Below are positions 9,272-20,839 of a DNA stretch of 45,518 bases, one piece after another. The position numbers and the translations under genes were made by a program. Below the pieces are notes generated by a model, which was not told the origin of the DNA, made no database searches, and was given only the letters and a program-made list of their open reading frames with translations. Origin of the DNA: Parcubacteria group bacterium (lineage in GTDB: Bacteria; Patescibacteriota; Minisyncoccia; JACPHC01); assembly GCA_016188775.1 (NCBI GenBank), contig JACPHC010000001.1, positions 1 through 45,518 on the forward strand. Reading direction: 5' to 3'. Each line of letters starts with the position of its first letter. The first letter of the stretch is position 1.

Positions 9272-10255
9272 ATGTACGATATCATCACAATCGGGACCGC
9301 CACTCGCGACGTTTTTTTAAAAAGCCCGGCTTTTAAAATTTTGCGCGATCCAAGTTTTGCCACGGGGCAGGCCGAATGCTTCGCTCTGGGTTCAAAAATT
9401 GAGGCGCCGGAAATTTATTTCACCACCGGCGGCGGAGCGACTAACGCGGCCGTCACTTTTTCCCGCCAAGGTTTAAAAACCGCCTGTCTAACGAAAGTCG
9501 GCAACGACCCTAACGGAAAAGAGATTATTCAAGAATTAAAATCCGAAGGCGTGAGTGTTTTCGTAAAACAGGAAAAAAGGGGAGGCACGGCTTACTCGGT
9601 GATCTTAATGGCGCCGGGCGGGGAACGAACCATTCTTGTTCATCGAGGCGTATCTGAAAAAATTTCTCCAAGCGACTTTTCTTTAAATTCCATTAAAACC
9701 CGCTGGGTTTATTTAGCGCCTTTGGGCGGAAAAAATGTCCGTCTTTTTAAGCCATTGGTTGATTATTTCTATAAAAATAAAATCAAAATCGCGGTTAATC
9801 CGTCCGGAGCGCAAATAAAAATGGGAGTTAAAAAACTGATTCCAATTTTAAAAAAAATCGATGTTTTTATTTTAAATCAAGAAGAGGCCGGTTATTTGAC
9901 TGGCGTTGATTTCAAAAAGGAACAAAAAATTTTTAAAAAACTTGATGATTTAATTACTCCCGGCATCGCCGTGATGACCAAAGGCAGAGACGGGGTTAGC
10001 GTTTCCGATGGCAAACATATTTGGCAAGCGGGCATTTTAAAAGAAAAAAAACTGGTTGACCGAACCGGCGCCGGCGACGCTTTTGGCTCCGGTTTTGTCG
10101 CCAGCCTGATTAAAAAAGATAACATTGAAGACGCGATTCAATTGGGTTCAGCTAATGCCACTTCCAAATTGGAGAGTATCGGCGCCAAGAACGGACTTTT
10201 GAAAAAAAACGAGTCAATTTATAAATGGGGAAAGCTTAAAATTAAAAAAATATGA
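9272..10255 (+). CDS. PfkB/ribokinase-family carbohydrate kinase
   Basis: TGGGATNAAVTFSRQGL, DRTGAGDAFGSGFVA signature. Confidence 0.9.
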   Translation: MYDIITIGTATRDVFLKSPAFKILRDPSFATGQAECFALGSKIEAPEIYFTTGGGATNAAVTFSRQGLKTACLTKVGNDPNGKEIIQELKSEGVSVFVKQEKRGGTAYSVILMAPGGERTILVHRGVSEKISPSDFSLNSIKTRWVYLAPLGGKNVRLFKPLVDYFYKNKIKIAVNPSGAQIKMGVKKLIPILKKIDVFILNQEEAGYLTGVDFKKEQKIFKKLDDLITPGIAVMTKGRDGVSVSDGKHIWQAGILKEKKLVDRTGAGDAFGSGFVASLIKKDNIEDAIQLGSANATSKLESIGAKNGLLKKNESIYKWGKLKIKKI

Positions 10256-10282
10256 CCCTTCGGGTCATCACCCGTGGGGTGA
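10254..10282. repeat. double-hairpin repeat family D: GACCCTTCGGGTC-AT-CACCCGTGGGGTG
   Basis: same sequence class as 18695-18723 and 20758-20786. Confidence 0.8.
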
Positions 10283-10292
10283 AAAATTTAAA

Positions 10293-18432: not shown

Positions 18433-18488
18433 ATGATAAGCTTGCTATCTTAGTTGAGCGGGGCAACTGTTTTTCCAATCCCATCAGA

Positions 18489-18522
18489 GCCGACCTAGCT
18501 CAATGGCAGAGCAACGGTTTTG
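18489..18522 (+). pseudogene. tRNA-Thr-like 5' fragment (acceptor strand, D arm, start of anticodon arm)
   Basis: GCCGACC TA GCTCAATGGCAGAGC A ACGGTTTTG. Confidence 0.65.
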
Positions 18523-18539
18523 CCCGCCCCGTTAGAAAT

Positions 18540-18612
18540 GCCGAGGTAGCTCAGCTGGTAGAGCAACTGTTTTGTAAACAGTAGGTCGTGGGTTCGAATC
18601 CCTCCCTCGGCT
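18540..18612 (+). tRNA. tRNA-Thr(UGU)
   Basis: GCCGAGG/CCTCGGC acceptor, ACTGT-TTTGTAA-ACAGT anticodon arm, TTCGAAT T-loop; one T-T mismatch in the T-stem. Confidence 0.85.
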
Positions 18613-18632
18613 CATCGGCATTTCTAACTGGG

Positions 18633-18667
18633 TAAATAGGTTCCGAGTTCGAGTCTCGGGTTCGGCT
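18633..18667 (+). pseudogene. tRNA 3' fragment (T arm and acceptor strand) likely matching the 18489 fragment
   Basis: AAATAGGTT CCGAG-TTCGAGT-CTCGG GTTCGGC T. Confidence 0.6.
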
Positions 18668-18676
18668 CTGACGGGA

Positions 18677-18741
18677 TAAATAGGTCCTCGGTTTGACCCT
18701 TCGGGTCATCACCCGCAGGGTGACAAATCCGAGAGGCGGCT
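18677..18741 (+). pseudogene. second tRNA-like 3' fragment with family D double hairpin inside the T-loop
   Basis: AAATAGGTC CTCGG-TTTGA[CCCTTCGGGTCATCACCCGCAGGGTGA]CAAAT-CCGAG AGGCGGC T. Confidence 0.55.
18695..18723. repeat. double-hairpin repeat family D
   Basis: GACCCTTCGGGTCATCACCCGCAGGGTGA. Confidence 0.85.
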
Positions 18742-18759
18742 TTGATAAAAAATATCTAT

Positions 18760-18843
18760 CCGGCGGTGACAGAGTGGCCAAATGTACCTGACTGTAAATC
18801 AGGCGGGTTAATCCCTACGTAGGTTCGAATCCTACCCGCCGGA
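18760..18843 (+). tRNA. tRNA-Tyr(GUA), class II, with C1:G72
   Basis: CCGGCGG/CCGCCGG acceptor then A73, T8, anticodon loop CTGTAAA, long variable arm CGGGTTAATCCCTAC, T arm GTAGG-TTCGAAT-CCTAC. Confidence 0.92.
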
Positions 18844-20650: not shown

Positions 20651-20723
20651 GCCGTTGTAGCTCAGTTGGCAGAGCAACTCCATGGTAAGGAGTAGGTCGT
20701 CGGTTCAAATCCGACCAACGGCT
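20651..20723 (+). tRNA. tRNA-Thr(GGU)
   Basis: GCCGTTG/CAACGGC acceptor, ACTCC-ATGGTAA-GGAGT anticodon arm, TTCAAAT T-loop. Confidence 0.93.
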
Positions 20724-20757
20724 CCGGCAATGAATGAAAAAATGATGTCGTCGGTTT

Positions 20758-20786
20758 GACCCTTCGGGTCATCACCCGCAGGGCGA
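20758..20786. repeat. double-hairpin repeat family D inside another tRNA-like T-arm remnant
   Basis: TCGGTTT[GACCCTTCGGGTCATCACCCGCAGGGCGA]CAAATCCGCGCCTGGGCT. Confidence 0.8.
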
Positions 20787-20839
20787 CAAATCCGCGCCTG
20801 GGCTCATAAATAAATTTAAATATTATAATTAAGGTATGG

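Follow-up and report, generated by a model that had tools for sequence, protein, structure and literature searches.

The window, that is, the whole stretch of 45,518 nucleotides analysed here, contains an intact tRNA-Thr(UGU) gene enclosed by the broken remains of two further tRNA-Thr genes. The locus probably arose by at least two successive insertions of non-autonomous palindromic elements, which carry a rescue tRNA and insert into cognate tRNA genes. The nesting, the arms with and without an enclosed tRNA, the target duplications of tRNA-less copies, the cognate tRNAs recovered upon excision and the near-identical inserts in different outer tRNAs were all computed, from data that consist of assemblies, mostly metagenomic. 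The original prediction had proposed that palindromes bearing a tRNA were inserted repeatedly into tRNA loops. This reading was supported by the presence of the arms elsewhere, by shared inserts, by an un-nested syntenic locus and by excision restoring cognate tRNAs, while the options listed beside it, decayed tandem tRNAs or an intron, fitted less well than insertion. Beyond that prediction, the phenomenon is widespread and comprises several arm families as well as several isotypes, with the cargo having the isotype of the target.

Layers of the window locus and tRNA genes of the source genome

A single tRNA could be called by ARAGORN and Rfam in the region 18440-18745, namely tRNA-Thr(UGU) at 18540-18612 (73.5 bits), where an intact gene had been predicted. 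It lies in the anticodon loop of a broken tRNA-Thr (layer 2), which itself lies inside a more decayed one (layer 3). Inverted repeats around each layer, also part of the prediction, were recovered by an inverted-repeat search of the window, with arms of 17/18 bp for the inner element (18527-18544/18615-18632, 18 nt, 94%) and of 15/16 bp for layer 2 (18478-18493/18662-18677, 16 nt, 94%). They go beyond what shuffled sequence delivers: the best inverted repeat of 18440-18760 has 17 paired bases, against a maximum of 12 among 40 dinucleotide shuffles. Folding of the nested region as RNA gave z = -6.06, with 0/100 shuffles equally stable. The features of the locus are as follows.

~18444..18475, + strand: decayed 5' part of the layer-3 tRNA-Thr (AACTGTTTTT), up to the anticodon loop; resembles the 5' half of the inner tRNA, no ARAGORN or Rfam call
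18478..18488, + strand: left arm of the layer-2 element (ATCCCATCAGA), running on into the layer-2 acceptor stem to 18493 (inverted-repeat search)
18489..18522, + strand: 5' half of the broken layer-2 tRNA-Thr, its TTTTG end in the anticodon loop (sequence reading)
18523..18539, + strand: left end of the inner element, CCCG-C-CCCGTTAGAAAT, i.e. tetranucleotide plus arm, the arm reaching 18544 (inverted-repeat search; ends compared across elements)
18540..18612, + strand: intact tRNA-Thr(UGU) of the inner element; no second tRNA-Thr(UGU) called in the genome (ARAGORN, Rfam, genome tRNA list)
18615..18632, + strand: right arm of the inner element, TCGGCATTTCTAACTGGG (inverted-repeat search)
18633..18666, + strand: 3' half of layer 2, with TAAATAGG, T arm and acceptor GTTCGGC; anticodon stem short of about 3 nt on its 3' side (rejoined layer 2 without tRNA call)
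18667..18676, + strand: right arm of the layer-2 element, TCTGACGGGA (inverted-repeat search)
18677..18741, + strand: 3' part of layer 3, with TAAATAGG, T arm CTCGG/CCGAG and acceptor AGGCGGC; double hairpin in the T loop at ~18695-18723
20719..20794, + strand: ghost tRNA-Thr 3' half with the same hairpin in the T loop, downstream of tRNA-Thr(GGU) at 20651-20723

Both halves of layer 2 flank the intact tRNA as claimed, the 3' one with T arm CCGAG-TTCGAGT-CTCGG and acceptor GTTCGGC at 18643-18666. An uninterrupted tRNA much like layer 2, with arms of the same kind, was found in genome G007 (L030/L051). The further 3' part, from which layer 3 had been recognised, is present, and its description has to be completed by the decayed 5' part and by the T-loop hairpin in the 3' part. 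This double hairpin (GACCC-TTC-GGGTC / TCACCC-GCA-GGGTGA) recurs in ghost tRNA-Thr 3' halves at 20719-20794 of the window and at G000:C3:103196. A hairpin of the layer-3 type (GACCCTTCGGGTC..ATCACCC..GGGTGA) also stands as a solo copy between two protein genes at 10253-10287 of the window.

Two mutually exclusive folds of the inner tRNA had been suggested as well. Both exist on paper, at -46.9 kcal/mol with the arms paired and -38.7 with the acceptor stem forced, but an RNA switch as their function is unsupported; beyond the computed energies, no conservation argument for the alternative fold was found. Since the arms merely lengthen the acceptor stem in several relatives (L044, L051, L077), the alternative fold was not treated as a conserved function.

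The source of the window is a small symbiont-type bacterium with a genome of 766,832 bases in 10 contigs. Its 48 tRNA matches include tRNA-Thr with UGU, CGU and GGU once each. Arrangements similar to that of the window were found at other tRNA genes: a tRNA-Gln(CUG) interrupts the D loop of a second, identical one, a tRNA-Pro(CGG) lies in the anticodon loop of another tRNA-Pro between the arms CCCCATTAGAAAT/ATTTCTAACGGGG, and a tRNA-Phe between 18-bp arms adjoins a 5' ghost. Ghosts of 3' halves occur at tRNA-Asp and at the two other tRNA-Thr. Downstream of the tRNA-Asp at G000:C10:64798-64873 (L328) stands a ghost 3' half of the same isotype, which has the identical acceptor and a T loop interrupted by a long insert. 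Screening of 52 distinct tRNAs in four genomes already known for nested tRNA-Thr revealed nests of Ile(GAU), Val(CAC), Val(UAC), Val(GAC) and Leu(GAG), the Val(CAC) nest having three layers.

A fixed detector, demanding arms plus a ghost half, responded to 3/46 tRNAs in the source genome, 8/52 in the four nest genomes and 1/50 in four hairpin-free genomes. Ghost signals in sense orientation numbered 9, 14 and 3 in these three sets vs 7, 4 and 6 in antisense, which serves as background; single ghost halves alone are thus weak evidence. A separate observation concerns a weak tRNA-Ser(UGA)-like gene and the stretch that precedes it (L006 487-563 and 385-460, together G000:C3 ~102,885-103,062), a regular tRNA-Ser(UGA) being encoded elsewhere (L331). 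The preceding stretch bears a terminator, and two segments of 11 nt were recognised there by eye as complementary to the anticodon region of the gene.

Arms and nested tRNA-Thr across the class

Nested tRNA-Thr was counted by reading in at least 36 of the 383 sampled genomes of the class, in 24 families and with several arm sequences. Seventeen of the 36 derive from a right-junction pattern and 15 more from an arm-independent pattern, to which G008, G053, G021 and G037 were added. With one mismatch allowed, the right-junction pattern matched 51/383 genomes, with background visible in the control; 17 of the 70 loci retrieved with it have an intact tRNA-Thr between arms with at least 12 of 14 bases paired. 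The arm-independent pattern matched 79/383 genomes, many by chance, and 16 further loci were read as nested, showing different arms and different junctions, the D loop among them. In a less selected sample, with one tRNA-Thr-like locus per genome from 50 of 55 relatives, 39 loci had tRNA-Thr(UGU), of which seven were nested according to the detector, plus L030 by eye; this is not a clean frequency, since the loci were the best matches to the window. A strict-pattern scan of named genomes delivered 22 stretches. Those bearing a nest all came from Parcubacteria groups (Sungbacteria, Vogelbacteria, Nealsonbacteria, Giovannonibacteria, Wolfebacteria, Terrybacteria, Staskawiczbacteria, Liptonbacteria and other Patescibacteria or Parcubacteria), and the nest was absent from the matches in other phyla among these 22.

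The tRNA-bearing inserts are mostly located in the anticodon loop, some of them in D loops, and tRNA-less inserts are found in T loops. Inserts with a tRNA end with a tetranucleotide (CTTG, CCCG etc.) on one side and with TRAA or CGAA on the other, and none of them showed 4-bp target duplications like those of the tRNA-less hairpins. As judged from the compared ends, the element probably includes TRAA/CGAA (or its mirror). An earlier rule, by which every insert would stop immediately before TAAA of the tRNA, was dropped after the Gln, Pro, Ile and Val cases.

The original prediction had suggested a search for the arms in other contexts. The arms of the inner layer, formulated as CCCGTTAGA-N(0-30)-TCTAACGGG, were indeed found across the class, in 76/383 sampled genomes, with 0 for the reversed-pattern control. 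Copies reached 45 places in a single genome (G008) and 17 in G280, the shortest measuring 26 or 27 bp. In a sample of the phylum, 15 of 286 genomes matched, 10 of them outside the class. The same pattern gave 76 stretches in viral contigs, where, given the size of the collection, palindromes of 19-48 nt can be due to chance. The inner bases of the arms co-vary (AAAT/ATTT, GGC/GCC, AAGC/GCTT), indicating that the hairpin structure is kept.

Thirty tRNA-less copies were chosen regardless of their flanks. Exact 4-bp direct repeats outside the terminal Y..R pair were present in 10 of them, compared with a shuffled mean of 1.0 and 0/2000 shuffles reaching 10. Other tRNA-less copies have a CTTG-like foot in place of the duplication; a foot of CTTG type on one side was seen in 8/30. 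Twenty elements combined a CTTG/CCCG/CCTG/CTCG foot with TRAA/CGAA at the other end, although such ends were demanded by the selection pattern itself. By their sequence features, the tRNA-less arm copies look like mobile palindromes.

Several individual copies deserve mention. Palindromes of ~100 bp with CCCGTTAGA ends lie directly upstream of putative ribosomal protein genes (L087 508-607, L105 reverse 508-607, L095 508-607), identified by eye from the frame starts as S8, L24 and L19; they may be leader hairpins. In a genome from another class of the phylum, a palindrome inside a palindrome of the same family occurs twice (G404:C1:103034-103069 and 234526-234572). Hairpins of CCCGTTAG without tRNA are also found secondarily in dead outer tRNAs, in the T loop of L013 (G008) and in the outer 3' anticodon stem of L293 (G021), the latter with a clean TGAA target duplication.

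Origin of the inner tRNA and rejoined sites

Among 38 nested tRNA-Thr loci, the inner tRNA was not significantly nearer to its own outer tRNA than to the outer tRNAs of other loci by permutation. For the 5' halves the values were 26.5 (own) vs 25.4 (others), with 418/5000 permutations reaching the observed mean, and for the 3' halves 25.4 vs 24.8, with 1643/5000. Comparison with relatives, as the original prediction had advised, showed the same insert in different outer tRNAs. The inserts of G018 (family f19) and G096 (f28) are 98% identical, the outer halves 75% and 68%; the window-type insert is 93% identical to both, and across the comparisons of window, G018 and G096 the outer halves are 61-80% identical. 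Moreover, at the syntenic locus L012 (tsf, small ORF, tRNA-Thr(UGU), tRNA-Tyr, tRNA-Thr(GGU), tRNA-Trp) the tRNA-Thr is plain and un-nested. The permutations, the shared inserts in different outer tRNAs and the plain L012 locus together favour arrival from outside over local duplication.

Local duplication at insertion, by template switching or gene conversion, would mean that the inner tRNA was copied from the outer one, with the palindrome arising as a by-product. It agrees with the exceptions, namely tRNA-Gln(CUG) (L325), where inner and outer tRNA are identical across the shared parts, and L279 and L280, where they are identical or nearly so. As an account of the whole it is improbable, in view of the 38 tRNA-Thr loci, of the acceptor stems, which usually differ between inner and outer tRNA, and of one insert occurring in different outer tRNAs of different families. 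It was mostly rejected on the basis of the permutation test.

In order to restore the empty site, the insert was cut out in silico in 17 cases, 16 of which could be located. In 10/16 the rejoined outer site was called as a tRNA by ARAGORN, and in all ten its isotype and anticodon were equal to those of the tRNA in the excised insert. The ten restored tRNAs comprise eight Thr(UGU), one Gln(CUG) and one Ile(GAU). For L293 two inserts were removed, and the identity of the inner tRNA was taken from a separate call on that locus. Junctions without loss or gain were obtained in the D loop (L267, L274) and in the anticodon loop (L270, L293), and rejoined L043 and L086 were called in spite of a shortened anticodon stem. 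No tRNA was callable by ARAGORN at the remaining 6/16 rejoined sites, layer 2 of the window included, because the outer tRNA had lost bases or the halves no longer match. These six sites, a recurrent 3-nt loss in the outer 3' anticodon stem and the lack of 4-bp duplications at tRNA-bearing inserts count against the insertion reading.

The intactness of several outer tRNAs after excision (L267, L270, L274, L293, L325) would also be expected if the insert with its tRNA were spliced out in an intron-like manner and both the outer and the inner tRNA were functional. The anticodon loop is the classical site of tRNA introns, and most inserts are located there. Such splicing is nevertheless very unlikely: the outer 3' anticodon stem is damaged in the window and in many relatives, the six uncalled rejoined tRNAs do not fit, D loops also contain inserts and T loops contain tRNA-less ones, no intron family reached Rfam gathering scores, and the same arms occur as intergenic hairpins.

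Equally little credit can be given to scars of integrative elements or prophages which had their attachment site in a tRNA and were later lost. Integrases that target tRNA genes are known to cross over in the anticodon and T loops, in line with such an origin. There are also phages that disrupt a tRNA and supply a substitute for it (PMC10865867). The inserts, however, show no duplicated attachment core around them and, at ~110 bp, offer no room for an integrase; their arms are common to hairpins of 26-48 nt far from tRNAs, and one insert pattern gave 0 matches in viral contigs.

Proposed element and relation to known systems

In the insertion reading, each element would be a unit of ~110 bp with no protein gene and with a complete functional tRNA-Thr between inverted arms. 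Its target would be the anticodon loop of the tRNA-Thr(UGU) gene in use at that time. Insertion would destroy the host's only gene for that tRNA, and the clone is proposed to survive because the element supplies the cognate tRNA. The broken outer gene would decay, and the new inner tRNA would present the same loop to the next element. The folded palindrome, the tip of which can be a tRNA cloverleaf, may be moved by an enzyme acting in trans, and tRNA gene loops would be good targets. Where the tRNA gene hit is single-copy, insertion should kill the cell unless the tRNA carried is cognate and lies in the sense direction. As the short inserts leave little room for another promoter, the old outer one probably transcribes the inner tRNA. 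The units presumably moved as units and the inner tRNA alone would be functional; duplication-making and tag-recognising modes are both candidates for the insertion.

A wider proposal, for which belief and doubt are evenly balanced, is that class-wide selfish mini-elements of Patescibacteria destroy single-copy tRNA genes, supply their own cognate tRNA and thereby make the host dependent on the element. It would comprise independent captures of many isotypes, moves between families, repeated replacement of the tRNA set and single-strand targeting of tRNA loops.

As for the enzyme, the source genome encodes a Y1 transposase of the REP-associated type, with 39.9 bits for NCBIfam REP_Tyr_transpos, below the cut-off of 80. 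No CCCGTTAGA hairpin was found within 120 bases on either side of this RAYT-like gene. Y1_Tnp (PF01797) did not track the number of hairpins, with 7/12 hairpin-rich vs 7/14 hairpin-poor genomes, and G018 has nested tRNA-Thr yet no PF01797. A RAYT/Y1 transposase as mobiliser is therefore unsupported, both by the presence test in 26 genomes and by the flanks of the one Y1 gene of the source genome. Neither a viral vehicle, as judged from the one insert pattern, nor a free-standing tRNA-bearing donor was found; like the failure to identify a transposase, this weighs against the insertion reading.

If true, the insertion reading describes a minimal self-rescuing mobile element of ~110 bp, which disrupts an essential gene and itself constitutes that gene. 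Such an element would explain odd tRNA fragments in reduced genomes, turn the layers into a relative clock of insertions, imply horizontal replacement of essential tRNAs between families and raise a testable question, namely which enzyme moves the elements. For tRNA annotation it is a warning that an intact tRNA may be flanked by the halves of a dead predecessor; partial tRNA genes from integrated elements are a known annotation problem (PMC9897764).

No report of same-isotype nested tRNAs in bacteria was found in the literature searched (open-licence papers, titles and abstract openings). The rescue logic is known from tRNA-dependent prophages; its miniature, nested, multi-isotype version was not found there. 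In tRNA-dependent lysogeny, actinobacteriophages disrupt a tRNA gene and provide a cognate tRNA in exchange (PMC10865867). In that case a whole phage with a tyrosine integrase uses one attachment site, whereas here a palindrome of ~110 bp without an integrase gene is involved, nested repeatedly and in several isotypes and several loops. Bacterial MITEs are characterized by terminal inverted repeats and target duplications and have no transposase gene. The present elements resemble them, as they are outlined in the part of PMC3733652 that was available, in their terminal inverted repeats, in the lack of a transposase gene and in the target duplications of part of the tRNA-less copies; they differ in copies down to 26-27 bp and in tRNA-bearing copies without duplications, and no autonomous transposon with the same ends was noticed.

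With REPs and REPINs, on the basis of partial texts (PMC3116915, PMC2817692, PMC8266576, PMC3733652), they share the nature of short structured non-autonomous palindromes with many dispersed copies, part of which show a tetranucleotide foot. Unlike these, they carry a tRNA gene, have CTTG/CCCG where such a foot is seen, show no association with a Y1 gene in 26 genomes and have 4-bp duplications in a third of the tRNA-less copies. PMC3733652 deals with palindromic repeats that bear tetranucleotide tags; in its available part, tRNA is mentioned by way of synthetase and pseudouridine synthase genes. The same partial source (PMC3733652) presents the Rickettsia palindromic elements, likewise palindromic selfish DNA in functional genes; these are tolerated because the protein tolerates the insert, whereas here the gene is destroyed and replaced by the cargo. 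Finally, Dada DNA transposons are, in the accessible portion of PMC3706591, also specialised on small RNA genes, but their targets are multicopy and the loss of one is relatively harmless, whereas here single-copy tRNA genes are hit and rescued.
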